Positions 8,529 to 33,092 of a stretch of DNA of 64,000 nucleotides are shown piece by piece; position 1 is the first letter of the stretch; every line of letters starts with the position of its first letter. The DNA lies in the NCBI RefSeq assembly GCF_901905185.1, contig NZ_CABFMQ020000131.1, positions 1 through 64,000 of the forward strand, read 5' to 3'. The translations under genes and the position numbers were made by a program. This stretch comes from Methylocella tundrae. GTDB taxonomy: Bacteria > Pseudomonadota > Alphaproteobacteria > Rhizobiales > Beijerinckiaceae. The notes under the pieces were generated by a model. It was given only the letters and a program-made list of their open reading frames with translations, searched no databases and was not told where the DNA came from.

Positions 8529-9197
8529 TCAGCTTTTCAGCAAAGGCTCCAAAATCTGGTCGAGTTTTTCAGGCGATATTTCGCCTGTCTGCTTCTGGCC
8601 GTTGAAGAAGAACGTCGGCGTTGCGCTCACTCCGAATTTCTCCGAGGCGTGATCGCGTATCTTATTGATCTTATCGTAAAGATCCTGGTTTTTGAGACAG
8701 GTCTCGAAGGCTTCCTGGCCCATGCCCGTCTGTTTCACGAGGTTGGCGAGGGATTCCACGGGCTTGTCGGTAAACGCCCAGTTCTTCTGTTGCAAGAACA
8801 GCAAATCGACGATGGCGTTGCGCTTGTCGTCGCCGGCGCAGCGGGCGAGCATGAAGCCTGCCGTGGCGAGCGGGTCCAGCGGAAACTCGCGCAGAATGAA
8901 GCGCACCTTGCCGGTGTCGATATATTTGCTTTTCAAGGTTGGAAATGTCTCGGCGTAAAACGCCGCGCAATGGGAGCAGGTCATCGAGGCGTATTCGACG
9001 ATCGTGACGGGCGCGTCGCTCTTGCCGAGAGCCAGATCCGGCAAGGCCTCGCTAGCCATGAGTTGATCGACCGGCACGCTGGAGCCTTGGGCGAATGCCG
9101 GGGAGCCCCCTGCAAGTCCAAGGAGGAGGGCGGCGGCGGCGATCCGGAAAAGGACGCGGCGGCTCTGAACGGCCGGGCTTTTGGTTAGCGTCTGCAT
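8529..9197 (-). CDS. DsbA-family thiol:disulfide oxidoreductase
   Basis: 222 aa with an N-terminal signal peptide (hydrophobic residues about 16-36, cleavage near AFAQ), so it acts in the periplasm. The thioredoxin-like active site is Cys74-Ser-His-Cys77 in EYASMTCSHCAAF, and the cis-proline loop is at Pro194 (SATPTFF). The spacing fits the DsbA/BdbD/Com1 group. It probably introduces or repairs disulfides in exported proteins. It lies downstream of the DUF721 gene on the same strand, a common arrangement in rhizobia. Confidence 0.88.
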   Translation of the reverse strand: MQTLTKSPAVQSRRVLFRIAAAALLLGLAGGSPAFAQGSSVPVDQLMASEALPDLALGKSDAPVTIVEYASMTCSHCAAFYAETFPTLKSKYIDTGKVRFILREFPLDPLATAGFMLARCAGDDKRNAIVDLLFLQQKNWAFTDKPVESLANLVKQTGMGQEAFETCLKNQDLYDKINKIRDHASEKFGVSATPTFFFNGQKQTGEISPEKLDQILEPLLKS

Positions 9198-9381
9198 GGG
9201 TTTCGATCCATCCGGAGGGCGAGAATTATCTCTAATGGTTTGTTTTATCGCGTTCTTTTCACGTAAGCGGCGACTTTTTGGTTTGCGGGCGTTTCTGATT
9301 GATAGCGGTGCGTCTGATTGAAGGCGCAGGCAAAACGATCATGGCGTAGCTGAAAAGCGGCATCAAGGCGTAGGAACCCCA

Positions 9382-9897
9382 CTAATCGCCGCCGCTCAGC
9401 GACGAGCGGGTTAGCACACAGGCCCCGAGCCGCGTCAAGGCCTTGCGGAGCGCTTCGTCGGGGATATTTCCCACAGCCGCTTCGGCGGCCTTCACGATCG
9501 CGAGAGCGGGAGGCGTGCGAGGCGGTCGCGCAGGCGCGCGCCTTTCGAGCGGACCTTGCTTCAGGAGCAGCCGGTCGACGCAACGCCAGCCAAGATGCGC
9601 GTTGACGCGCTCGATGACGGCGCCGGCGCGATGTTGCAGCTCCAGCGCAAAGCCCGTTTCGACGCGCACAATGAGCGAGGCCGGAGAAGATCCGCCCGCC
9701 GTCCCGCGCGGGCGCGGCGGCCATTGCAGCTTGATCGGCTGCGACATCGCGGCGAGGCGCTCGCCGACGATCTCGTCCCAAAACAAAATAACGTCGGATT
9801 GCCCGAATCCTCGCCGCGCCAACGTCGGATCGATGATGGGTCCGACAAGGTCGGCGAGCGGTCTTGACCAGGGATCTTTGGGACGGAACGCTCGCAT
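9382..9897 (-). CDS. DUF721 (DciA-like) protein
   Basis: 171 aa, no signal peptide. The DUF721 core is visible: helix FWDEIVGERLAAMSQP, then a KLQWP strand, and a C-terminal LIVRVETGFALELQH segment, followed by an Arg/Pro-rich linker and a short helix. DUF721 includes DciA, the helicase-loading adaptor of many bacteria without DnaC; whether this member does that is inference. It lies head-to-head with mutY, with a VOC gene between. Confidence 0.75.
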   Translation of the reverse strand: MRAFRPKDPWSRPLADLVGPIIDPTLARRGFGQSDVILFWDEIVGERLAAMSQPIKLQWPPRPRGTAGGSSPASLIVRVETGFALELQHRAGAVIERVNAHLGWRCVDRLLLKQGPLERRAPARPPRTPPALAIVKAAEAAVGNIPDEALRKALTRLGACVLTRSSLSGGD

Positions 9898-10587: not shown

Positions 10588-11658
10588 ATGTATGACGTTT
10601 CGTCTAATACTTCCCACGCCAGCGCGCTGCTCGTCTGGTATGATCGGCATCGCCGCGTGCTGCCCTGGCGCGCCGCCCCCGGCGAGCCGAGCGATCCTTA
10701 CGCGGTCTGGCTCTCCGAGATCATGCTGCAGCAGACGACGGTCACGGCGGTGAAGCCCTATTTCGCGGCTTTTCTCAAGCGCTGGCCCGACGTCGCGGCG
10801 CTGGCGGCGGCGCCCGTTGACGAGGTGATGCGGCAATGGGCCGGTCTTGGCTATTATTCGCGGGCGCGCAACCTTCACGCCTGCGCGCTTGCGATCGCCC
10901 AGCGGTTTGGCGGGCGCTTCCCGGACGATGAGGCGGCGCTGCGCGCGCTGCCGGGACTTGGGCCCTATACGGCGGCGGCGATCGCGGCGATCGCCTTCGG
11001 GCGGCGCGCCGTGGTGGTCGATGGCAATGTCGAGCGCGTCGTCGCGCGGCTCTTCGCCATCGAGACGCCGACGCCGGCGGCAAAGCCGCTCATTCGGGAA
11101 AGGGCCGCCGCGATCACGCCGGACCATCGCGCCGGCGATTACGCGCAGGCGATGATGGATCTTGGCGCGACGATCTGCACGCCAAAGCAGCCCGCTTGCG
11201 CGATCTGCCCGCTCTCGCAGGCTTGCGGGGGCAAAGCCCTTGGCGATCCGGCGCGCTTTCCGGTCAGAATGCCCAAAACCGTCCGTCCGCGGCGGCGCGG
11301 CGCGGCATTCTATGTCACGCGCGCGGATGGCGCGGTTCTGGTGCGCACGCGTCCGCCGAAGGGCCTGCTCGGAGGGATGACGGAAATTCCGGGAACGCCC
11401 TGGAGCGGTGATTTCATCGAAGGATCTGCGCTGGATCTGGCGCCGATCAAGGCCCGCTACCGCAAGCTCGACGGCTGCGTCGAGCATGTATTCACGCATT
11501 TTGCCTTGCAGCTTTCTGTTTATGTGGGCGAAGTTGAGACGGCAAGCGCGGCGCCCGAGGGTTGCCGCTGGACGCCCGCGGAAAGGCTCGACGGGGAGGC
11601 TCTGCCGAGCCTCATGCGCAAAGTCGTCGAGGCCGCGCGCGGCGCGACTGAAGTCTAA
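10588..11658 (+). CDS. mutY: A/G-specific adenine glycosylase MutY
   Basis: 356 aa DNA repair enzyme that removes adenine opposite 8-oxoguanine. It has catalytic Glu44 in LSEIMLQQT, a helix-hairpin-helix loop LPGLGPYTA (121-129), catalytic Asp145 in VVVDGNVERV and a 4Fe-4S ligand set Cys197, Cys204, Cys207, Cys213 (C-x6-C-x2-C-x5-C). The C-terminal Nudix-like domain (about 235-350) contains PPKGLLGGMTEIPG. Its Fe-S cluster would be a client of the suf operon nearby. Confidence 0.95.
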   Translation: MYDVSSNTSHASALLVWYDRHRRVLPWRAAPGEPSDPYAVWLSEIMLQQTTVTAVKPYFAAFLKRWPDVAALAAAPVDEVMRQWAGLGYYSRARNLHACALAIAQRFGGRFPDDEAALRALPGLGPYTAAAIAAIAFGRRAVVVDGNVERVVARLFAIETPTPAAKPLIRERAAAITPDHRAGDYAQAMMDLGATICTPKQPACAICPLSQACGGKALGDPARFPVRMPKTVRPRRRGAAFYVTRADGAVLVRTRPPKGLLGGMTEIPGTPWSGDFIEGSALDLAPIKARYRKLDGCVEHVFTHFALQLSVYVGEVETASAAPEGCRWTPAERLDGEALPSLMRKVVEAARGATEV

Positions 11659-11717
11659 AGTTTCGGGCTCATGGATGAGATCATGCGTCAATACAACATG
11701 AATGGGATGAGTTGAGC

Positions 11718-11984
11718 ATGGCCACGCGACGCGGGGGGCCGCGGATCACCCTGACGGAAGGCGCGATCCGCATTTTGTGGACCGACAAGGTTTTGACGAT
11801 CCTGCCGGCGGCGCAACCGCCGGATTCCGAGGAGGCGGTCGATTTCGTCATCGACATGGACCAGATCATGACCTGGGATCCGCCGCATCAGAGCGTCGAA
11901 ATCGGCGTTGAGGAATTGCAGATCATCATGCAGGCTATTGAAGCCGATCTCGAAAAACTCGGGCTCGTCGTCGCCTTCGAATAG
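11718..11984 (+). CDS. 90-aa-class conserved hypothetical protein
   Basis: 88 aa from ATG 11718 (a TTG two codons earlier is possible). It is acidic and soluble, with an N-terminal ITLTEGAIRI strand, a central DMDQIMTWDPPHQ segment and a C-terminal amphipathic helix LQIIMQAIEADLEKLG. Small proteins with this layout are sometimes grouped with the Imm74-like fold; that link is a weak impression. No toxin gene is adjacent. It lies 59 bp after mutY and is followed by a strong hairpin. Confidence 0.6.
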   Translation: MATRRGGPRITLTEGAIRILWTDKVLTILPAAQPPDSEEAVDFVIDMDQIMTWDPPHQSVEIGVEELQIIMQAIEADLEKLGLVVAFE

Positions 11985-12020
11985 GGCATGATCGACACGA
12001 TCATTCAAATGATCATGCCC
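11984..12020. terminator. Palindromic hairpin after the 88-aa gene
   Basis: A perfect 10-bp stem: GGGCATGATC (11984-11993) and GATCATGCCC (12011-12020), overlapping the upstream stop codon. There is no U-tract. It could be a terminator or an intergenic palindromic repeat. Confidence 0.5.
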
Positions 12021-12046
12021 CAGCATCGGGCGCCGGGAGTTTTGCC

Positions 12047-13672
12047 ATGTCTCGCGTCGCAGGCGGGTTTGAAGCGGGCTCCTTCAATCAGTCGCCGCGC
12101 TTCGAGGATATTGATCTCTTTGGCGCCGACGTCGCGCTTCGCGAGGCGGTTTTGCGCGCTGGCGTCGACCCCGATTGCTCGGGGCTCGCAGCCTTCGGCA
12201 AGGATTTCGGCTCGGCCGGGACGATCGAACTCGGCCGCCTCGCCAATGAGAATCCGCCGCGCCTTCGCATTGTCGAACCGGATGGCGAGCGCGCCGACAG
12301 AATCGAGTTTCATCCGGCCTATCATGCATTGATGCAAAAAAGCATGGCGGCGGGGCTGCATGGTTCGGCCTCCGAGGCGGGCGCCACGCGCGTCACCGAA
12401 CGCGCCGCGCGCCTTTATATGGCGACGCAGATCGAAGCCGGGCATATCTGCCCCCTGACCATGACCAATGCGGCGGCAGCGGCGCTCAGAGCCTCGTCAT
12501 CGCTCCTGTCGGCATGGCTGCCGCATATTCTGTCGCGCGACTACGACGGCGCGATGAAGCCGTGGTTCGAGAAAAAGGCCGCGACGATCGGCATGGGCAT
12601 GACGGAGCGCCAGTCCGGCACGGATGTGCGCGCGACGATTACCGAGGCCAAAGCCTGTAACGGACATTATGAGATTTCCGGCCATAAATGGTTCATGTCG
12701 GCGCCGATGTCCGACGCCTTTCTCGTGCTGGCGCAGGCGCCGGGCGGCCTCACCTGTTTCCTCGCGCCGCGCTTTCGTCCGGACGGCGCCGTCAACGGGC
12801 TGAGGCTCCAGCGCCTCAAGGACAAGCTCGGCAACCGCTCCAACGCATCCGCTGAGGTCGAATTCATCGGCGCCTATGCCGAGCGCGTCGGCGAGGAAGG
12901 CGCGGGCGTGCGGACCATCATCAATATGGTGCAATGGACGCGGCTCGACTGCACCGTCGCCGCCGCGGGCCAGATGCGCTTCGGCCTTGCTCAGGCGGGC
13001 CATCATGCGCGCCATCGGACAGTGTTTCAGCGCCGGCTCATGGATCAGCCGGCGATGCGCGCCGTGCTGGCCGATCTCGCTCTTGAGAGCGAAGCCAATG
13101 TCGCGCTCGCCTTTCGCCTCGCGGGCGCCTATGAGCGCGCGGCGGCGCATCCGGCGGAGGCGGCCTACGCCCGGCTGATGACGCCGGCGGCGAAATATCT
13201 CGTCACGAAATCAGCGCCGTCCTTCATCTATGAGACGCTCGAATGCCTTGGCGGCAATGGCTATGTCGAGGATTTTCCGATGGCGCGTCTTTATCGCGAG
13301 GCGCCGCTCAACGCCATCTGGGAGGGGTCCGGCTCCGTCATGGCGCTCGACATTCTGCGCGCCATGCGAAAGGACCGCGAGGCGACGGCGGGCGTGATCG
13401 ACGCTCTGGCGGCGGCGTGCGGCGCTCCGGGCAAAACGGCCGCCGCAGCAATCAAGCAGCTTGCCGCCAGCGCGGAGGCCGAAAGCCGCGCGCGGATGAT
13501 CGCAGAAAGGCTGGCGCGGCTCGGCGCGCTCGCCGCGCTTCATGAAACGAACGGCGTTTTCGCCGAGGCCTATGCGGCGACGCGCCTCGCGGGCGAACCG
13601 CGCGGCACCTGGGGCGCCTGCGACCTTGGGGCGGCGGAAGGCGTCGCCCTGTCGCGCCTGCTGGCGGAGTAG
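12047..13672 (+). CDS. AidB-like acyl-CoA dehydrogenase
   Basis: 541 aa flavoprotein. The acyl-CoA dehydrogenase fold is seen in the central MTERQSGTDVRA and HKWFMSAPMSDAF blocks, and the C-terminal ECLGGNGYVEDFPMARLYREAPLNAIWEGSG motif region matches the AidB (alkylation-response) subgroup. Its N-terminal NQSPRFEDIDLF opening is also AidB-like. AidB binds FAD and DNA in E. coli and is linked to alkylation damage defence. No ada gene lies nearby, so the role here is inferred from the subgroup only. Confidence 0.85.
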   Translation: MSRVAGGFEAGSFNQSPRFEDIDLFGADVALREAVLRAGVDPDCSGLAAFGKDFGSAGTIELGRLANENPPRLRIVEPDGERADRIEFHPAYHALMQKSMAAGLHGSASEAGATRVTERAARLYMATQIEAGHICPLTMTNAAAAALRASSSLLSAWLPHILSRDYDGAMKPWFEKKAATIGMGMTERQSGTDVRATITEAKACNGHYEISGHKWFMSAPMSDAFLVLAQAPGGLTCFLAPRFRPDGAVNGLRLQRLKDKLGNRSNASAEVEFIGAYAERVGEEGAGVRTIINMVQWTRLDCTVAAAGQMRFGLAQAGHHARHRTVFQRRLMDQPAMRAVLADLALESEANVALAFRLAGAYERAAAHPAEAAYARLMTPAAKYLVTKSAPSFIYETLECLGGNGYVEDFPMARLYREAPLNAIWEGSGSVMALDILRAMRKDREATAGVIDALAAACGAPGKTAAAAIKQLAASAEAESRARMIAERLARLGALAALHETNGVFAEAYAATRLAGEPRGTWGACDLGAAEGVALSRLLAE

Positions 13673-13882
13673 CAGCTATCGTCTTGAGGTAGGGTCTGGC
13701 CGTTTAGACCGGACACGTTGCCTCGCCGGCCAAGGCCCGCGCGGCCAAGCCTTTCGTGTTTTCATTGTTGTCGCCGGCGGCGCATTTAAATGCAGCCACC
13801 CTTGGTTATCCAGAAGGCCAGGTAGCCTATGTATCTTCGTCATCTCGAGAGTTGAAGATCTCAGGTGCAAGGAGATATGAAA

Positions 13883-14122
13883 ATGAAAAGGGCTAAAATC
13901 GGCCTTGTCGCCCTCGCTTTTGCGTCCGTAATATCAGTGGTCGGAGCAAAAGAGCTTTATGTCGACAAGCTCAGCAAAGCGTCGATAATTTATGAAATGA
14001 GAGAGACTGGCCGCTCTGTCGTCTCGACTGGCCATTCGGCGCGCGACGTTGGCATCGTCAATGAAACCCGCCTCGGCGCCGGCCTGAATTCGCCTGAACG
14101 CCCGACGGACCTCGCGAACTGA
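13883..14122 (+). CDS. Small exported protein of unknown function
   Basis: 79 aa from ATG 13883, which sits 8 nt after AGGAG; another ATG at 13877 is too close to that site. Residues 5-25 form a signal peptide with likely cleavage near VGAKE. The mature part is about 55 residues with no Cys. I do not recognise a family. It is isolated between aidB-like and two minus-strand exported genes. Confidence 0.6.
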   Translation: MKRAKIGLVALAFASVISVVGAKELYVDKLSKASIIYEMRETGRSVVSTGHSARDVGIVNETRLGAGLNSPERPTDLAN

Positions 14123-14166
14123 TGACGCCGGCGGCCATTGAGAAGCCACGCATCCGATGCTAACGG

Positions 14167-14487
14167 CTAACTCCGGCTCGGGTAAATGCCCGTCAGCGAT
14201 ATGCACTGGATCAGGCCGGCGCCCTGCGTCAGAGTGAGAACAGGCTTAGCCAGCGGCAGGGCGAACGTCGTTCTTCCGTCGCCCCCAAATGTTGTGCCGA
14301 GGAGGGAAAAGAGCGCCTGGTATTGGTTGATCGGAAGCAGCTGCCCGTTCAGCGGAGCCCAGTTAACAGGGCAGAAATTGTAAGGAAAAGTGTCAATCTC
14401 GCCCAAAAAGGGATTGCCGCCCGCCAACGCCGAACCGGCGCTGACGCAGATTGCTACGGCGGCTGCAGCGAAACAAAGAATGCGCAT
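14167..14487 (-). CDS. Exported protein with a phage tail-collar-like domain
   Basis: 106 aa with a signal peptide (residues 1-22, cleavage near ALAGG). The mature part carries GEIDTFPYNFCPVNW, then NGQLLPINQYQALFSLLG, then FGGDGRTTFALP, the hallmark of the phage tail-collar (Phage_Collar / microcystin-dependent-protein) domain. Only the collar and a short tail are present; phage fibres are much longer. Export plus a single collar domain suggests a surface or extracellular domesticated protein. The function is unknown. Confidence 0.7.
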   Translation of the reverse strand: MRILCFAAAAVAICVSAGSALAGGNPFLGEIDTFPYNFCPVNWAPLNGQLLPINQYQALFSLLGTTFGGDGRTTFALPLAKPVLTLTQGAGLIQCISLTGIYPSRS

Positions 14488-14536
14488 CTTGGCCTCCGCG
14501 AAATCACGCCTGGCGATGACTCAGCACAACAGCATG

Positions 14537-14986
14537 TCAGGCGCCATCGTAGACGGCATAAATCGGAAGCGTGCAATCTGGAAACGTGATCGAGAATTGC
14601 ACGACGAGCTGCTTAGCCGTCGCATTATAGGTTTCGCTATAGTTCGAGAACGGCGGGTCCTTGACATTTGCCGGCAGGGTAGGGGTCTGCTTGAAATGAA
14701 TATTGCCGCTCGTCGGCGAGGCGAATGTCATGGTCGCCTGGCCGCCCAAATCAAACGACGATTGATCGACGATCTCGGCAAATGAAATGACGGCCTTGAG
14801 GCTGGAGCCATTTCTTTGAAAGGTCGAAAAGCCTCTATTCAGATAGCAGCGCGCTCCAAAACCAACCGCGCCGATTGCCTCTCTTGTCTGCCCCGCGATC
14901 AGGACGTCCGGAGGGGTTTGAGCTTGGGCGAGGGATGGAAGCAGGGTTGCAAGGGCAATGGCGACGACGCCGGGCAAGCCGCGCAT
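14537..14986 (-). CDS. Exported protein of unknown function
   Basis: 149 aa from an ATG at 14986, which has GGAGG about 8 nt upstream; the open frame extends to 15061 but without a site. Residues 1-22 are a signal peptide with cleavage near AQAQT. The mature part is rich in Ser, Thr and beta-strand pattern, with two Cys. I know no family for it. It lies 49 bp upstream of the collar-domain gene on the same strand, so the two may be co-expressed. Confidence 0.6.
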   Translation of the reverse strand: MRGLPGVVAIALATLLPSLAQAQTPPDVLIAGQTREAIGAVGFGARCYLNRGFSTFQRNGSSLKAVISFAEIVDQSSFDLGGQATMTFASPTSGNIHFKQTPTLPANVKDPPFSNYSETYNATAKQLVVQFSITFPDCTLPIYAVYDGA

Positions 14987-24490: not shown

Positions 24491-25030
24491 ATGCGCTCGA
24501 TGCTAAGATCGACGCTGGTTTTCATCGCTGGAGCCGCCGGGTTCATGGCGGCGATGAGCTCTGGAAGAGCCGCTGAAACCTGTTTTCATGTCTGTTTGAA
24601 GGAAAAGATGACCGCGCCCGACATCGACGACCAAGGCATCCGCGATCTGATGTCGGATTGCCGCGACGTCTGCGCGGAGCGGGCCGAGGCGCGGCTGATT
24701 GAGGCGGGCCTCGGCGACAAGATCAAGGGCTGCGCGCCACAGCCCGTGGATGACGCGGACCTCAAAAAGATTCGCTCGGCCAGCCCCTCGGTCGTTGCTT
24801 TCGCCAATGCGTTCACATGGGACGTGAACAATGTTTTGCCCGGCAAAATCATCCGCCGCGTTGAAATCGGGACTCAGAGTCTTTCCCTGCAAGACGTTAC
24901 GCTGACCGCGAGCGGCATTGTCGAGCCCGGCGAAAGCGGCACATTCTTTATGAATAATGTCGCCGACGGCTATCCGAGCTTGCGCGTGACCTCGCGAATC
25001 AAGGCGATCTACGCCTGTCCGGTTGATTGA
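24491..25030 (+). CDS. Exported protein of unknown function
   Basis: 179 aa. Residues 1-27 are a signal peptide (cleavage near GRAAE). The mature region starts with four Cys in a CFHVCLKEK and CRDVCAERAEARL pattern, suggesting two disulfides, then a beta-rich half (TQSLSLQDVTLTASGIVEPGESG) with a last Cys near the C-terminus. I know no domain for it. It is followed by the tandem hairpin repeats. Confidence 0.6.
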   Translation: MRSMLRSTLVFIAGAAGFMAAMSSGRAAETCFHVCLKEKMTAPDIDDQGIRDLMSDCRDVCAERAEARLIEAGLGDKIKGCAPQPVDDADLKKIRSASPSVVAFANAFTWDVNNVLPGKIIRRVEIGTQSLSLQDVTLTASGIVEPGESGTFFMNNVADGYPSLRVTSRIKAIYACPVD

Positions 25031-26283: not shown

Positions 26284-26634
26284 ATGTTGAAAATCGCCCT
26301 TATAAATATGTGCGTCATTGGCGCCGCTCTCGCGGGGGCGCCCGCCTTCGCCGCTGAAGTCAATGATTATCCAACAGAGGCGCGCGCCGATTATGTTTAC
26401 GTCTGCATGAAAACCAACGGCGAGACGCGCGATATCTTGAAGCGCTGCTCCTGCTCGATCGACGTCATCGCTTCTCTCCTGCCTTACGACCGCTTTGTGG
26501 CGGCGGAGACAGTCGTGAGCATGGATCAGGCGATTGGCCAGATCGGCACGATGTTCCGCAACAGCCCACAGGCCAAAGCGACCTCGGACGAATTGCGCCG
26601 CGCACAGGCTGAAGCGGAAGTTCGCTGCTTCTGA
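26284..26634 (+). CDS. Exported protein of unknown function upstream of xoxF
   Basis: 116 aa from ATG 26284; a longer reading from 26233 would bury the signal peptide. The signal ends near AFAAE. The mature part has a YVYVCMKTNG segment and RCSCSIDVIASLLPYDRFVAAETV, so three Cys with a Cys-x-Cys pair, and a terminal RCF. My recollection, not checked, is that related exported proteins occur beside PQQ-dependent alcohol dehydrogenase genes in other Rhizobiales. It lies 540 bp upstream of xoxF on the same strand. Confidence 0.65.
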   Translation: MLKIALINMCVIGAALAGAPAFAAEVNDYPTEARADYVYVCMKTNGETRDILKRCSCSIDVIASLLPYDRFVAAETVVSMDQAIGQIGTMFRNSPQAKATSDELRRAQAEAEVRCF

Positions 26635-27173
26635 GTCGCCGCGGCGGCATTCCCGGTCTGAAAATCAACGGCCGCGGCCGCGATGCGCGCGGCAAAAATG
26701 TTGTGCGATCGCGAAGGATTGAATTTCTTGCAATGCAGCAATTATATTGCGGCAAAATTTGTCTTTTGCTGCAAGAAAAGTTCCCGCTTTTTTATGGCCG
26801 CTTTTGGACGCGAGCTTATCGGTAAGACGCTACAAGAATCACTCGCGCTTTCTGAATGTTGTTTTTGAATCAAAGGTCTACGCGCATGGCCCAAGCTTTG
26901 CTCGCGCCTTCTTTCCGGCCGATTTGGCGGGCTTGCGCGTTGCGCGAGGACTATTGTGTCGGGTCGCGGCCCAATATATACAGGTCACGTAGTTTTCCGG
27001 CTTCATGAGCTAACGGTCGGGGTCGTTGCTCTATTCGAAGACGGAGTGGGTCGTGCGGTGATGCATCGTCCCACTGAGGTGGTGACACGCTGCCGGAAAA
27101 AACACGCGGAAAAGCACTGCCGAAGCAAGATAAGCTTCGCAGCAGCGAAAGACAAACGGTCCGGAGGAAATTC
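26635..27173. promoter_or_regulatory. 539-bp leader / promoter region of the xox operon
   Basis: No gene is evident. An inverted repeat, CTTGCAATGCAGCAA (26727-26741) with TTGCTGCAAG (26766-26775), lies in an AT-rich patch. The xoxF ribosome-binding site GGAGG is just upstream of 27174. A long leader is consistent with regulated expression of methanol dehydrogenase, but no -35/-10 pair can be called with confidence. Confidence 0.45.
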
Positions 27174-28970
27174 ATGCGCAAACTTCTACTGATGTCCTGT
27201 GTCGCCGCAACTGCACTCATGGCGAACAGCGCGGTCTTCGCCAATGACGAGCTCGTCAAGATGCAGAAGAACGCCAAGGACTGGGTAATGCCAGGCGGCA
27301 ATTATTCGAATACCCGGTTCTCCGAGCTCAACCAGATCACCAACAAGAACGTAAAAGATCTGGTGCCGGTATGGACATTCTCCACCGGCGTTCTGCGCGG
27401 CCACGAAGGCGGCCCGCTCGTGATCGGCGACGTCATGTACTTCTCGACGCCATTCCCGAACATCGTCTACGCGCTTGACCTCAACAATGATGGCAAGATC
27501 ATCTGGAAGTATGAGCCGAAACAGGATCCGAGCGTCATTCCGGTGATGTGCTGCGACACTGTCAATCGCGGCGTTGCTTACGGCGATGGCAAAATCTTCC
27601 TGCATCAGGCTGACACCACGCTGGTCGCGCTTGACGCAAAAACCGGTCAGCCGGCCTGGTCCGTGAAAGACGGCGATCCGTCCAAAGGCGCGACCGGAAC
27701 TTCGGCTCCGCTCGTCGTCAAGGACAAGGTGCTGATCGGCGTGTCCGGCGGCGAGTTCGGCGTACGCGGCTATGTGTCCGCCTATAACATCAAGGACGGC
27801 AAGCTCGCATGGCGCGGCTATTCGATGGGCCCGGATGCGGACACCATCATCAATCCTGAGAAGACGACCGCCCTCGGCAAGCCGGTCGGCAAGGACTCCG
27901 GCACCAATACCTGGGAAGGCGATCAATGGAAGATCGGCGGCGGCGCGACCTGGGGCTGGATCTCCTATGATCCCGAGTTGAACCTCGTCTATTACGGGTC
28001 CGGCAATCCATCGACCTGGAACCCCGTGCAGCGTCCCGGCGACAACCGTTGGTCAATGTCGATCTGGGCGCGTAATCCTGATAACGGCGAAGTCAAATGG
28101 ATCTACCAGATGACGCCGCATGATCAGTGGGATTATGACGGCATCAACGAAATGGTGCTGCAGAATCAGGGCAACAAGAAAGTCCTGGTGCACTTCGATC
28201 GTAACGGCTTCGGCTACACGCTCGATCGCGCCACGGGTGAACTGCTGGTCGCCGAAAAATACGATCCGGCCGTCAACTGGGCGACCAAGGTCGACATGGA
28301 CAAGTCCTCGAAGACTTATGGCCGTCCGGAAGTCGTCGCCAAATATGCGCCGGGATCCCAGGGTGAAGACGTCAACTATAAGGGCATCTGCCCCGCGGCT
28401 CTCGGTTCGAAGGACGAGCAGCCTTCGGCTTATTCGCCCATCACGGAGCTGAACTACGTCCCGACCAATCACGTCTGCATGGACTATGAGCCGTTCAGGG
28501 TGAGCTATACCGCTGGTCAGCCCTACGTCGGCGCGACCTTGTCCATGTATCCGCCTCCAGGCCAGAGCAACATGGGCAATTTCATCGCGTGGGACGCGAA
28601 GGCCGGCAAGATCGTGTGGTCGGACAAGGAGCAGTTCTCGGTGTGGTCGGGTGCGCTCGCGACCGCCGGCAACGTCGTGTTCTACGGCACGCTCGAAGGC
28701 TACCTCAAGGCTGTCGACGCCAAGACGGGCGAAGAACTCTACAAGTTCAAAACTCCGTCCGGCATCATCGGCAACGTGAACACCTATGAGCACAACGGCA
28801 AACAATATGTCGCGGTTCTCTCGGGCGTCGGCGGCTGGGCCGGCATCGGCCTCGCGGCGGGCCTGACGGATCCGAACGCAGGTCTTGGCGCCGTCGGCGG
28901 TTACGCCGCTCTGTCCAACTATACGGCGCTCGGCGGTCAGCTGACCGTGTTCGCCCTCCACGGCAAATAG
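27174..28970 (+). CDS. xoxF: Lanthanide-dependent methanol dehydrogenase XoxF
   Basis: 598 aa periplasmic PQQ enzyme oxidising methanol (often to formaldehyde or formate). The signal peptide ends near VFAND. Catalytic Asp320 is followed by Asp322 in [11 protein letters not shown]; the second Asp is the extra lanthanide ligand that is Ala in calcium-type MxaF. Other metal ligands are Glu194 (GGEFGVRG) and Asn278 ([10 protein letters not shown]). Cys126-Cys127 form the vicinal disulfide over PQQ. The sequence resembles the XoxF5 clade of alphaproteobacteria. GGAGGAAATTC precedes ATG. It is the first gene of xoxFGJ. Confidence 0.97.
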
Positions 28971-29058
28971 TCTGCCTGGTTGAACGATGTGAACTTGGAC
29001 CTCGGCGCTCCTGCGCCGGGGTTCTATTCACTGGCGCCGTCGAATCAAGGATGTTTTC

Positions 29059-29589
29059 GTGCACATTAGCTCTCTGGCGCGGGCCATGTCCGCCGCCCTT
29101 CTCATCACGTCCGCAAGCGCCGCTATGGCCGACGCCCCCGGAGATCCCGCAGCCGTTAAAGAGGACGATCTCGGCAAATGGGTCGACGCGAAGGGCGATC
29201 CAACCTACAAGATTGAGCCTGACGGAAAGCTCGACTGGTTCGCCTATTCAGGATTTCGCCGCTATCATTCCGAGTGCCACGTCTGCCACGGCCCTGACGG
29301 CGAAGGTTCGAGCTATGCGCCTGCCCTGAAGAACTCCGTGAAGACGATGAGTTACGCCGAGTTCGTCGGCACTGTGGTGGGTGGCAGGAGGAACGTCACC
29401 AGCAGCCAGGAAAATGTTATGCCGGCCTTCGGCGATAACAAAAATGTCATGTGCTATCTGGACGATATTTACGTTTATCTTCGTGCGCGCTCCACCGACG
29501 CCGTTGCGCGTGGACGGCCCGCGGGCCACGTCGACAAACTGCCCGCGGCGACAGCGGCGGAAAAAGAATGTCTGGGATTGGAAAAATGA
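29059..29589 (+). CDS. xoxG: XoxG, cytochrome c electron acceptor of XoxF
   Basis: 176 aa from GTG 29059, with AAGG 8 nt upstream; ATG 29051 is in another frame. The signal peptide ends near AMADA. The single haem site is Cys73-His-Val-Cys76-His77, with a likely axial Met121 in NVMPAF. The protein takes electrons from XoxF in the periplasm and passes them to the respiratory chain. The gap from xoxF is 88 bp, and its stop overlaps the xoxJ start. Confidence 0.93.
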   Translation: MHISSLARAMSAALLITSASAAMADAPGDPAAVKEDDLGKWVDAKGDPTYKIEPDGKLDWFAYSGFRRYHSECHVCHGPDGEGSSYAPALKNSVKTMSYAEFVGTVVGGRRNVTSSQENVMPAFGDNKNVMCYLDDIYVYLRARSTDAVARGRPAGHVDKLPAATAAEKECLGLEK

Positions 29590-30431
29590 AACGGATCTGG
29601 CCTCTCGTCCTTTCAATCGCTTTCCTCGCGCCGTTAGGCTCGCGGTTCGCGGCATTGGCCGAGGGCGCCGCCGACGCGGCGATCGAGCTGGTCGATCCGG
29701 ACGTGCTGCGCGTTTGCGCCGACCCGCGCGATTTGCCGTTCTCCAATGAGGCCGGCGAAGGTTTTGAAAACAAGATCGCCGCCCTTCTCGCCCAAAAGCT
29801 CGGCAAATCGCTGGCCTACGTCTATTATCCGAACTCCACCGGCTTTATCCGCAACACGCTGAACGCCCACCGGTGCGATGTCGTGATGGAGATGCCACAG
29901 GGCAATGACTTCGTCCAGGTCACAAACCCCTATTACCGCGCGTCCTATGCGATGGTCACGAAAAAGGGCGGCGATCTCGATGGCGTCGTGACGCTCGAAG
30001 ATCCCCGGCTGAAGGGCAAGCATATTGGCATCGTTGCCGGAACCCCGCCAGCGACCAACCTTGCGGTTGACGGGCTGCTGCCGGGCATCAAATCCTATCC
30101 GCTGGTGATCGATACGCGCGCCGACGCGCCGACAGCGGACATGATGAAAGATCTTGAAGACGGCGTTATCGATGTCGCGATTCTCTGGGGCCCCATCGCG
30201 GGCAATCTCGCCAAGACCTCCAAGGCTTCGGTGACGGTGACGCCGCTCGTGAACGAGAAAATCGGGCCGCGCATGATCTATCGAATCGGCATGGGCGTCC
30301 GTCATAGCGATCAGGAATGGAAACGCACGCTGAACAAGCTCATTGCCGAAAATCAGGGCGAAATCGACAAGATCCTGCAGGACTATGGCGTGCCGCTTCT
30401 TGATGAGAACGACAAGCCCAGGGTGAACTGA
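29586..30431 (+). CDS. xoxJ: XoxJ, periplasmic substrate-binding-like accessory protein
   Basis: 281 aa from ATG 29586, overlapping the xoxG stop (ATGA). The signal peptide ends near AALAEG. It has the type 2 periplasmic-binding fold: LRVCADPRDLPFSNEAGEGFENKIAALLAQ at the start, then the MEMPQGNDFVQVTNPYYRASYAMV hinge and DVAILWGPIAG. This is the quinoprotein-dehydrogenase-associated family typified by MxaJ and XoxJ. XoxJ is thought to help activate XoxF; its ligand is not settled. Confidence 0.93.
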   Translation: MKRIWPLVLSIAFLAPLGSRFAALAEGAADAAIELVDPDVLRVCADPRDLPFSNEAGEGFENKIAALLAQKLGKSLAYVYYPNSTGFIRNTLNAHRCDVVMEMPQGNDFVQVTNPYYRASYAMVTKKGGDLDGVVTLEDPRLKGKHIGIVAGTPPATNLAVDGLLPGIKSYPLVIDTRADAPTADMMKDLEDGVIDVAILWGPIAGNLAKTSKASVTVTPLVNEKIGPRMIYRIGMGVRHSDQEWKRTLNKLIAENQGEIDKILQDYGVPLLDENDKPRVN

Positions 30432-30480
30432 GCCGGCGCAATTAAGGGCGCTGATTCGCGAGCGAGCCTGGAGCGTCTAG

Positions 30481-30512
30481 AATAGCGGGCCCTGCGGGGC
30501 GCGCTATTTTTT
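30481..30512 (+). terminator. Intrinsic terminator of the xoxFGJ operon
   Basis: AATAGCGGGCCC pairs with GGGGCGCGCTATT (one mismatch), followed by TTTTT, 50 bp after xoxJ. The stem is strong enough to also limit readthrough from the convergent minus-strand gene. Confidence 0.85.
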
Positions 30513-30518
30513 CGGTGA

Positions 30519-31190
30519 TTAGTCCAGATTGTTCTGGATCGCCCTTGAGAGGGCAAAAAGCCTTTGTTCGACCTGCGTCGGCGCCTCGCAGGCATAGGAT
30601 AGCGAGACGCGCCCTTCATCAAAGAGGCGAAGATCCCATTCGAGCTTTTGTGCGGCGGCGTTGCCTTCGACGGAGGGACCAGTGGGGCGCGATGCGTCCG
30701 GGCTCTTTTGAATCTCGGCGTTTTCAGCGCGAATCTTCGCGGCGAGCGCTTTCTGCTTACGTCCGAATCGGGATAATCCGTCGATGATCTCGAGCCGCTG
30801 ACTGTTGAGCGTTTCGAACAGCCCTGCAAACAAGGCGACAAGCTTTGCTTTCTTGTCCGGGCCGGCCGAGGCGGCGAAAGCCTCGATTGAATGTTCGGCC
30901 GCTTCAATCGGAGTTTTGCGCGCCGCGAGGTGGGCGACGAGATCGGCGACGGGCTCATCGCCTCGCCAGTCAACCCCCTCGATCGAAGGGCCGGCCCAGA
31001 CGGCCGGCAGGGAAATCTGCTCCACCAAAATCTGCTTGCAGGGCCAATCCGGATTAGCGGGTTCCGGCTTTGCCGCCTCGGCGAAGGCGTTCCCGTGGAC
31101 GATAGCCAACACAATCGTAACGGCGAAGGCGCGCGCCAATTCGCGCGAGGAGAGGGCGGCGGACGAAGGCGTGAATCCTTGAAATTGCAT
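30519..31190 (-). CDS. Exported protein of unknown function, convergent with xoxJ
   Basis: 223 aa from an ATG at 31190 preceded by GGAGGAATC; the open frame reaches 31268 but without a site. The signal peptide ends near AFAEA. The mature part starts PDWPCKQ, with a WAGPSIEG motif, then long helices (VADLVAHLAARKTPIEAAEHSIEAFAAS) and a final Cys in SYACEAPTQVEQRLFALSRAI. A helical bundle closed by one disulfide is plausible. I know no named domain. Its position beside xoxFGJ suggests, but does not prove, a methylotrophy link. Confidence 0.65.
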   Translation of the reverse strand: MQFQGFTPSSAALSSRELARAFAVTIVLAIVHGNAFAEAAKPEPANPDWPCKQILVEQISLPAVWAGPSIEGVDWRGDEPVADLVAHLAARKTPIEAAEHSIEAFAASAGPDKKAKLVALFAGLFETLNSQRLEIIDGLSRFGRKQKALAAKIRAENAEIQKSPDASRPTGPSVEGNAAAQKLEWDLRLFDEGRVSLSYACEAPTQVEQRLFALSRAIQNNLD

Positions 31191-31508
31191 GACGATTCCT
31201 CCGCTCTTTCCTTTTTGGCTCGCGGCGGGCGGCGCGCAATGCAGCCCGGAGCAAGCTCTAAATGGCACAAGTTGATAAGCGACGCCAACTGCCGATCTAA
31301 CGTTTTCGAACCGCCAGCGGCGGCCGGCGCGAGATCAGAAGGGCGGGAAATCGCCCAGGCGGCGGAAGCGGCGCGGTGATGACCGCAAAAAAGAGATTAG
31401 CGCCGGCATCGGAGCGCAGCGGCGCAACTTGTGCTTGTCTCGTGCATTGTGCATGTTCACCGCCGTGGTGGGGCCAATAAACTGGATTAGCCTGAAAGGA
31501 ACTCAGCA
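31191..31508. other. 318-bp divergent intergenic region
   Basis: It lies between the exported protein (minus) and the 71-aa protein (plus) and should hold both promoters. No repeat, RNA gene or operator is recognisable. Confidence 0.4.
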
Positions 31509-31724
31509 ATGGGGCTGATGGAATTGATTTTGACCGTTTGCTCTCTCGCGCAGCCCGCGCAATGTCAGGAACAAAACCTGACCTTCGTCGATCAGGGTGA
31601 AAGCTTGATGCAATGCGCGATGTCCGCGCCGCCGACCATCGCCGATTGGGTTAATCACCACCCGACGCGTTTCGTCGTGAAATGGCGCTGCGGCTATCCC
31701 GAGCAGGAAGGCAAGGATCTTTGA
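31509..31724 (+). CDS. Small conserved protein with Cys residues
   Basis: 71 aa. The sequence opens MGLMELILTVCSLAQP, has a LTFVDQGESLMQC segment and ends VVKWRCGYPEQEGKDL. I have seen this pattern in short uncharacterised proteins of many alphaproteobacteria; no function is assigned. Four Cys are present. Its stop overlaps the TTG start proposed for folP, so the pair is probably translationally coupled. Confidence 0.7.
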   Translation: MGLMELILTVCSLAQPAQCQEQNLTFVDQGESLMQCAMSAPPTIADWVNHHPTRFVVKWRCGYPEQEGKDL

Positions 31725-32593
31725 GCCAAACCGCCGAGCTTGCTGCAAAGTCTCATTCGATGCAGGCCAAGCGTGATCGCTTCCTGAACCGGATCGGGTC
31801 CGGCTCTCTTATCATGGGCATCGTCAATGCGACGCCGGACTCCTTTTCCGACGGCGGTCAATTTCAGACCGCTGCGGCGGCTGTGGCCCAAGCGCGAAAG
31901 CTGACCGCCGACGGAGCCGACATCATCGACGTCGGCGCTGAATCGACAAGGCCGGGGCATGAACCCGTCCCGGCGGATGTCGAATGCGCGCGGCTCGAGC
32001 CGCTGCTGCGCGCTGTCGTGTCGTCGATCGAGCAGCCGGTCTCGATCGACACGTCAAAGGCCTCGGTCGCCCGCTTCGCAGCCGATCAGGGCGTCGCCTT
32101 CATCAACGACGTGTGGGGCCTGCAGAAAGATCCGGCGATGGCCGATGTGGTGGCTGAAACTGAGACCGGCGTCGTCATCATGCACAATCGCGAGGAGACG
32201 GATCGCGATTGCGACATCATCGCGGACATGCGCCGTTTTTTCGATATCTCGCTCAGCCTTGCGGATAAAGCCGGGATCCCGATGAGGCACATCATCCTCG
32301 ACCCTGGCATCGGCTTCGCCAAGTCAAAAGCGCAAAATCTGCAGGCGCTGCGGGGCTTGCGCCAATTGCAGCATTATGGCTTGCCTATCCTTGTCGGTTT
32401 GTCACGCAAATCGCTGCTCGGCGCCATCGTTGAAGGGACGCCGGCCGGCGATCTGAAAATCGAGCCGCGCCTCATCGCCACCCTTGCCGCGAACATTGCC
32501 GCGGCGGCGGAGGGCGCCGCCATTTTCCGGGTTCACGACGCCGCCGAACATCTCGCCGCGTTCAAGGTTTTCGATGCAATCTCCCGTGCCTGA
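31721..32593 (+). CDS. folP: Dihydropteroate synthase
   Basis: About 290 aa from TTG 31721, which has AAGGATC just upstream; ATG 31760 is an alternative. It joins p-aminobenzoate to the pterin diphosphate in folate synthesis. The signatures are MGIVNATPDSFSDGG, ADIIDVGAESTRPG, the PVSIDTSK strand, LDPGIGFAKS and VGLSRKSLLG, all in order. It overlaps folK by about 20 bp. Folate supports C1 transfer in methylotrophs, though this gene is universal. Confidence 0.93.
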   Translation: MSQTAELAAKSHSMQAKRDRFLNRIGSGSLIMGIVNATPDSFSDGGQFQTAAAAVAQARKLTADGADIIDVGAESTRPGHEPVPADVECARLEPLLRAVVSSIEQPVSIDTSKASVARFAADQGVAFINDVWGLQKDPAMADVVAETETGVVIMHNREETDRDCDIIADMRRFFDISLSLADKAGIPMRHIILDPGIGFAKSKAQNLQALRGLRQLQHYGLPILVGLSRKSLLGAIVEGTPAGDLKIEPRLIATLAANIAAAAEGAAIFRVHDAAEHLAAFKVFDAISRA

Positions 32594-33092
32594 TCCTCAA
32601 AAGCCGAAAATCGTCGAAATCGGCCTCGGCCTTGGCAGCAACATTGGCGATAAACCCGCAAACATAGCTGCGGCGCTGGCGCGCCTGCAGGAGCGCGGGG
32701 CGCTTGTCGTCACCGCCGTCTCGTCAATCTATCGGACGGCGCCCTGGGGCTATCTCGATCAGGAAGATTTCGCCAACGCTTGCGCCTTGGCGACGACGAC
32801 GCTTCAGCCGGGCGAACTGCTGGCCGAGGTCAAGGCGGTCGAAACCGAATTGGGCCGCAAAGACGGCGTGCGCTGGGGACCGCGCCTCATCGACATCGAC
32901 GTTTTATTCTATGGCGATCAGGTTTTTGATTCACCCGAACTCGTTCTGCCGCATAAGGATCTGTTCAATCGGGCTTTCGTCCTCGTGCCCCTGGCCGAGA
33001 TCGCGCCAAAGCTGCGGCTTGGCGGACGCAGCGTCGGCGAGGCGGCCAAGGCGGCGACGGATCAAGGCGTCAAGCCCTGGGATGCGGCCTGA
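32574..33092 (+). CDS. folK: 6-hydroxymethyl-7,8-dihydropterin pyrophosphokinase
   Basis: 172 aa from ATG 32574, overlapping the end of folP. It pyrophosphorylates the pterin before FolP. The visible motifs are GLGSNIGDK at the start, SSIYRTAPWGY, GPRLIDIDVLFY and LPHKDLFNRAFVLVPLAEIAP. folB, often between folP and folK in rhizobia, is missing here. It is convergent with the S9 peptidase gene. Confidence 0.93.
   Translation: MQSPVPDPQKPKIVEIGLGLGSNIGDKPANIAAALARLQERGALVVTAVSSIYRTAPWGYLDQEDFANACALATTTLQPGELLAEVKAVETELGRKDGVRWGPRLIDIDVLFYGDQVFDSPELVLPHKDLFNRAFVLVPLAEIAPKLRLGGRSVGEAAKAATDQGVKPWDAA

Follow-up and report, generated by a model that had tools for sequence, protein, structure and literature searches.

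A XoxF5-type methanol dehydrogenase operon of Methylocella tundrae lies between two exported-looking proteins assigned by gene order to the Orf6 and LutG families

The delivery of lanthanides to the pyrroloquinoline quinone (PQQ) methanol dehydrogenase XoxF, and the maturation of this enzyme, are open questions on which two proteins encoded at either side of a xoxFGJ operon in Methylocella tundrae bear. The operon lies in a stretch of 64,000 nucleotides (assembly GCF_901905185.1, contig NZ_CABFMQ020000131.1, positions 1 to 64,000 of the forward strand), referred to here as the window. A preliminary description of this DNA had noticed an exported-looking Cys-x-Cys protein upstream of the operon (pA) and an exported-looking helical protein with a WPC motif converging on it from downstream (pB), and the reading frames listed below confirm that arrangement. 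Are these proteins dedicated to XoxF, and what might they do? The probable reading, in our view, is a locus for lanthanide-dependent methanol oxidation by XoxF5 together with its accessories, in which pB would be LutG, an accessory of the lanthanide importer, and pA would be Orf6, a maturation factor of XoxF5. The features are as follows.

26284-26634, plus strand: pA, 116 aa, ATG at 26284, stop ending at 26634; exported-looking helical protein with four Cys and an NDYPT motif, putatively of the Orf6 (META1p1746) family by gene order
27174-28970, plus strand: xoxF, PQQ methanol dehydrogenase, putative XoxF5 type, with a WDYDG metal site
29059-29589, plus strand: xoxG, c-type cytochrome (TIGR03874)
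29586-30431, plus strand: xoxJ, periplasmic binding-protein-like (TIGR03871); ATG at 29586 read from the sequence, overlapping the xoxG stop
30519-31190, minus strand: pB, 223 aa, ATG at 31190, stop ending at 30519; helical and exported-looking, having WPC (C51) and C201, putatively of the LutG (META1p1784) family by gene order, separated from its lutABEF partners

All three operon products score over their family cut-offs: XoxF at 754 bits with TIGR03075 (cut-off 480), XoxG at 236 bits with TIGR03874 (cut-off 162) and XoxJ at 309 bits with TIGR03871 (cut-off 212). The WDYDG site occupies XoxF residues 319-323, and its second Asp is what we take to be the mark of the lanthanide type. The window XoxF is therefore a PQQ alcohol dehydrogenase with the second Asp in its metal site and with xoxG and xoxJ adjoining. 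By similarity it would belong to clade 5, being 74% identical to a Phyllobacterium protein annotated XoxF5. A remark on the lanthanide-coordinating aspartate in PMC9291206 agrees with the second Asp as a lanthanide-type mark, and the same paper reports that XoxF5 of M. silvestris is induced by lanthanides. A second XoxF-type gene is present further along the window's contig (G000:C131:180557-182215; L111 16506-18215), 68% identical to the first. Since pA is separated from xoxF by 539 bp and pB faces the operon, 'bracketed' describes position and not a single transcript. A longer TTG start is possible for pB at 31268. Promoter and terminator scans gave counts close to the shuffled means (3 versus 2.0, and 8 versus 6.0), so no claim is based on them.

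Both families closely follow XoxF. Among 149 genomes of a family sample, pA and pB were each detected in 47, and these were the same genomes; XoxG was over its cut-off in 46 of the 47, with only G035 falling short. At E <= 1e-80, the XoxF threshold for this sample, a PQQ dehydrogenase was found in 63 genomes, 46 of them pA-positive and 17 pA-negative, and in the 47th pA-positive genome (G057) xoxF is cut by a contig end. For G130, the matches listed are to other PQQ enzymes (best 51%), because a contig end truncates its own xoxF, of which 119 aa are seen at 83% identity. Several of the remaining genomes among the 47 have partial XoxF matches. The order sample, with a XoxF threshold of 1e-220, has pA and XoxF in the same 69 of 249 genomes and pB in 70, the additional one being G286. 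At the phylum level (threshold 1e-150), pA and XoxF again share their genomes (18 of 209), and pB is found in 17, G449 being the one without. The order and phylum thresholds were chosen once the weaker matches of the family run had turned out to be other PQQ enzymes. The three samples overlap, and the Fisher values calculated for the co-occurrence take no account of relatedness among the genomes. Seven genera (g2, g12, g17, g22, g33, g85 and g104) are mixed, with members that have and members that lack the three genes, and within them the three genes switch together. Co-occurrence of pA and pB with XoxF5-type genes is thus near perfect in the genomes sampled. This is the check that the preliminary description had proposed; families widespread away from xoxF, which it had named, together with unresponsiveness to lanthanides, as grounds against its suggestion, were looked for and were not seen in the family and order samples. 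In addition, pA matches 126 and pB 116 of 72,556 plasmid records.

Such a pattern could in principle arise if pA and pB were merely old neighbors of the xox genes that travelled with them. Distances counted in 40 of the 47 family genomes, using the best-scoring XoxF (in G049 and G071, a nearer second-best instead), place pA less than 25 kb from XoxF in 27, and pB adjoins either xoxJ or a gene for a CXXCW protein in all 53 loci in which it was fetched with pA, both of which fit hitchhiking. However, the co-occurrence persists in the 5 of these 40 genomes with pA more than 300 kb away on the same contig and in the 8 with pA on a different contig, single copies are kept across the order, and the counterparts of both genes in M. 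extorquens AM1 have mutant phenotypes, such that we give hitchhiking almost no credence. Indeed, pA and pB are each single-copy in all 47 family genomes, including some that hold three XoxF genes of at least 70% identity (for example G009, G114 and G116).

Does the association extend to PQQ enzymes in general? The preliminary description had suggested that both proteins handle lanthanide or PQQ. The lanthanide half of that suggestion is borne out by the co-occurrence with XoxF, but the PQQ half is not. If pA and pB were general PQQ-handling proteins, the pqq genes found near pA in several loci would be readily explained, yet all 17 family genomes with other-type PQQ dehydrogenases lack both, and the defect of an AM1 orf6 mutant is reported only with La (PMC7391723). 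A general PQQ role is therefore highly improbable. Among 16 PQQ dehydrogenases whose metal site we inspected, drawn from 11 of these 17 genomes, the lanthanide-type Asp is present in 14, one of which (G003a) is XoxF-like at 55% identity, and Ala in the other 2 (G003b and G061a). In this sample, the pA and pB families go with XoxF5 and not with PQQ or lanthanide-type enzymes at large. As neither pA nor pB is found where the PQQ dehydrogenases are all of other types, be they of lanthanide type or not, the pair would serve the XoxF5 system and not PQQ handling at large. The two families set the XoxF5 system apart from other PQQ dehydrogenases, even those of lanthanide type.

The identity of pB is suggested by the company it keeps. 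The named pA loci that we compared are the best 80 of 496 matches, with a neighbor defined as the nearest among the query genes, and many are from Bradyrhizobium, so that counts over them are not independent. In the 53 that also contain pB, the upstream neighbor on the same strand is a LutF-like permease in 40, LutB-like in 4, LutE-like in 2 and another ABC ATPase 5 kb off in 1, with none in 6; hence a lut-like gene (LutF, LutB or LutE) lies 5' of pB in 46. In 45 of the 53 the 3' neighbor is a CXXCW gene, convergent with pB, and in the other 8 it is xoxJ. On annotated plasmids of Phyllobacterium (two records) and Paracoccus alcaliphilus, the genes for a binding protein and a beta-propeller are followed by small proteins, then by an ABC ATPase, an ABC permease and pB. 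The ABC genes are some 5 kb off in Azospirillum argentinense, where pB is opposed to xoxJ, and in Paroceanicella pB is found upstream of the xox genes at a distance of about 4 kb. In G008 (L098), a lutA-B-E-F run has LutF at 10633-11448, followed by the pB relative at 11478-12074 and a TonB receptor reading frame at 12508-14958 (PF00593, PF07715), and the relative in this lutG place is 37% identical to window pB. The same arrangement is seen in AM1, where lutG (tag 1784) lies between lutF (1783) and lutH (1785) (PMC7391723), and the last place after a LutF-like permease, held in the 40 loci above, is likewise that of LutG.

Window pB differs from AM1 LutG in being a lone gene, convergent with xoxJ and away from lutABEF. 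It stands alone beside xoxJ because lutABEF are elsewhere in the window genome, on contig C76 (L200 7408-11154), where the next match after them is to a cytochrome and pB is absent. A query-gene search likewise found no lut-like gene 5' of pB in L112, L113, L116 and L122, which come from Methylocella, Methylocapsa and a Beijerinckiaceae metagenome-assembled genome. Gene order together with homology strongly suggests that pB would be LutG, whose gene closes the lutABEFG operon for lanthanide import but here is found apart from it.

A comparable case can be made for pA. In AM1, pqqE has tag 1748, orf7 1747, orf6 1746 and xoxFGJ 1740-1742 (PMC7391723). In G008 (L097), the order is xoxF, xoxG, xoxJ, an L,D-transpeptidase, folate-type genes, pA, an orf7-like gene that overlaps pA by 20 bp, pqqE and pqqC, and this pA relative keeps all four Cys. 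The run of pqqE, orf7-like gene and pA adjoins xoxJ and xoxF in G035, adjoins xoxJ, xoxG and the end of xoxF in G130, and is also present in Xanthobacter autotrophicus AM3 and DSM 432 (L154 and L168). The relatives in G008, G035 and G130 thus sit as AM1 Orf6 does, next to orf7 and pqqE and near xoxFGJ, whereas window pA stands alone upstream of xoxF without an orf7-like or pqqE neighbor; orf7-like, pqqE and pqqC queries had no match within the window. From gene order and homology, there is a strong case that pA would be Orf6. The orf7-like genes (for example L094:11297-11938, L093:11152-11844 and L097 at about 8981-9760) form a family of their own that adjoins pA and either pqqE or a histidine kinase and response regulator pair. 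The L094 member had no Pfam or NCBIfam match, and an orf7-like gene of 25% identity also adjoins xoxJ in G449.

The preliminary description had regarded the locus as the clearest candidate for undescribed biology in the window. That view has to be given up, as by gene order pB and pA would correspond to LutG and Orf6, and both of these are known from mutants of M. extorquens AM1. A transposon screen for XoxF1 function recovered orf6 and lutG at least four times each (PMC7391723). With La, the growth rate on methanol is 0.16 per h for the wild type, 0.03 per h for the orf6 deletion, 0.03 per h for the lutG deletion after a 12 h lag and 0.08 per h for the orf7 mutant, whose lag is 9 h; the lutG defect was complemented, and a need for orf6 and orf7 is reported only when La is supplied (PMC7391723). 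Without lutG, the La-dependent growth rate falls by about 80% but growth is not abolished, and the same is true of lutA or lutB loss (PMC7391723). Elsewhere, the LutFG homologs of Beijerinckiaceae RH AL1 are lower with La (log2 -0.63 and -0.89; PMC8316094), LutG is among the lut genes raised in a strain that accumulates Gd (PMC8969499), and homologs of lutA, B, E, F and G are reported from Bradyrhizobium and Sinorhizobium (PMC12628762). LutG is not named in the accessible portions of PMC12482762 and PMC10848612, and our literature search, which had most subscription papers outside its reach, recognized no report of a biochemical function for LutG or Orf6. Both families are therefore described genetically but unexplained chemically, and no curated family model exists for either. 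The profiles made from pA and pB offer a means of recognizing both families, and because these track XoxF5 and their AM1 counterparts have mutant phenotypes, they provide concrete proteins for purification and testing.

What features could such proteins bring to XoxF5? Signal peptides of both were judged by eye. The four conserved Cys of pA (C41, C55, C57 and C115, including a C-S-C) are kept in all 62 rows of alignment A3, which holds window pA and 61 of 79 extracted relatives, near-identical ones having been excluded by eye; they are also kept, judged by eye, in G449 from outside the class. DYPT is found in 79 of 80 pA loci and DFPT in the remaining one, L129, which was excluded from A3 for reading NDFPT, so that the invariance of NDYPT in A3 is partly the result of selection. 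WPC is kept in 53 of 53 extracted pB relatives, and C201 in all 49 rows of alignment A4 (window pB and 48 of the 53). Conservation of the four Cys of pA and the WPC of pB is far beyond chance. The predicted structure of pA (mean pLDDT 85.6) has five helices after the signal helix, whose positions suggest that disulfides could pair C41 with C55 and C57 with C115. In that of pB (mean pLDDT 85.4), one helix spans 53 residues (110-162), and two further helices toward the C-terminus are shorter.

Searches by family and fold assigned neither protein. For pA, no match to Pfam, NCBIfam or PDB sequences was seen up to E 1, and its relatives, searched singly, gave only a weak match to DUF6162 (5 of 62 members, best E 0.071). 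For pB, there was no accepted Pfam or NCBIfam family, the only NCBIfam match being a chance one to an ATP synthase subunit family (0.19). Searched singly, pB members gave weak Pfam matches to ATG16 (20 of 49, best 0.002), MIC19_MIC25 (16 of 49, 0.013) and Metal_resist (PF13801; 12 of 49, best E 0.0064, with none for window pB). The Metal_resist matches probably reflect helix composition, because the coiled-coil families ATG16 and MIC19_MIC25 match more members, and the weak Pfam matches of both proteins, DUF6162 included, were read in this way. The 17 weak matches of pB to PDB sequences (best 0.012) were all to unrelated helical proteins. A fold search returned nothing at E <= 0.001 for either protein. 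The best structural likenesses, Z 4.5 for pA (1zkr_A, rmsd 3.9, 82 aligned) and Z 8.7 for pB (3u0c_A, rmsd 2.6, 108 aligned; a score shared by many helical proteins of no relation to each other), were taken as common arrangements and not as relationships.

The operon partners of LutG make up an ABC importer with a binding protein and a beta-propeller. Together with the AM1 phenotype, they point to LutG/pB as, most likely, a periplasmic helical accessory of the LutAEF ABC importer. Orf6/pA would be a small helical protein of the periplasm, probably held by two disulfides, and most likely helps to mature or load XoxF5, serving all XoxF5 copies of the cell. Such a shared role is suggested by the La-only defect in AM1, the XoxF5-only distribution, the one copy per genome and the lack of a need for linkage. 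A fuller version of this proposal can be put forward only tentatively: Orf6/pA may be a dedicated, previously unrecognized maturation factor, a four-Cys helical protein near-universal with XoxF5 in the samples, that folds the enzyme or supplies each copy in the cell with lanthanide and PQQ. It would then be what the XoxF5 system has so far lacked, an equivalent of the calcium enzyme's insertion proteins. MxaA, MxaK and MxaL are the calcium-insertion proteins of the MxaFI enzyme, and they are likened to pA by proposed role only and not by sequence. We also considered whether pA oxidizes the vicinal CC of XoxF, and rejected this; 16 of 16 other PQQ dehydrogenases read have the CC as well, and their genomes are without pA.

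Several observations weigh against assigning pA to XoxF5 maturation and pB to lanthanide import. The identities with LutG and Orf6 rest on gene order and homology, AM1 having been matched by locus tags and not by sequences. At the thresholds used, G286 (a 270-contig assembly) has pB without pA or XoxF. Conversely, G449, from outside the class, has XoxF and pA with no pB match at E <= 0.001; its locus (L193; G449:C13:415000-434900) holds xoxF-G-J, an orf7-like gene and a pA of 39% identity. The vicinal CC present in all 16 other enzymes gives no ground for a thiol factor restricted to XoxF5. Two further observations would also fit a relay role for pA: the gene for a SoxYZ-like carrier is the right-hand neighbor of pA in 56 of 80 loci, and the carrier is over its family cut-off in 10 of 10 pA-positive versus 1 of 10 pA-negative genomes (17 of 29 relatives overall, and 6 of 9 among those without a pA status).

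On the strength of this, pA could be a thiol partner of a quinoprotein relay set, composed of the SoxYZ-like carrier, a SoxH-like zinc hydrolase and the CXXCW rhodanese-like protein, moving or guarding a thiol-bound group and not maturing XoxF. The genes of the set do carry quinoprotein-linked NCBIfam names, over their cut-offs. However, the carrier of the window genome is on another contig (C1:263558), and in G008, G130, G035 and the Xanthobacter loci pA sits with the orf7-like gene and pqqE instead; we regard the relay as unlikely, though deserving of attention. A sensory role for pA, which would act in the periplasm with a two-component system and report on lanthanide or methanol-oxidation status, is more doubtful still. 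The order histidine kinase, response regulator, orf7-like gene, pA in Paracoccus alcaliphilus and Paroceanicella speaks for it and against maturation, and a kinase and regulator are near the pqq genes in G008 and Xanthobacter. Nevertheless, no such pair was found beside window pA with the queries used, and loss of orf6 slows growth as strongly as loss of the transport genes, with no change in xox regulation mentioned for that mutant in the accessible portions of the paper (PMC7391723).

The surroundings of pA and pB hold further genes of interest. Upstream of pA, the window encodes a third exported-looking Cys-bearing protein (24491-25030, plus strand, 179 aa) with no Pfam or NCBIfam match. 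It precedes pA in the Methylocella loci L099 and L112 too, and in L117 and L147 it occurs in the vicinity of ABC, lut and pqq genes. A small reading frame (31509-31724, plus strand, 71 aa), exported-looking with several Cys and no Pfam match, is located between pB and a pterin gene. Genes of dihydropteroate-synthase and HPPK type follow pB (31682-33092, plus strand), and the same two kinds are found between xoxJ and pA in G008 (L097). On Phyllobacterium plasmids (L091 and L092), lut, pqq, xox and relay genes occur together with a Calvin-cycle operon within about 28 kb.

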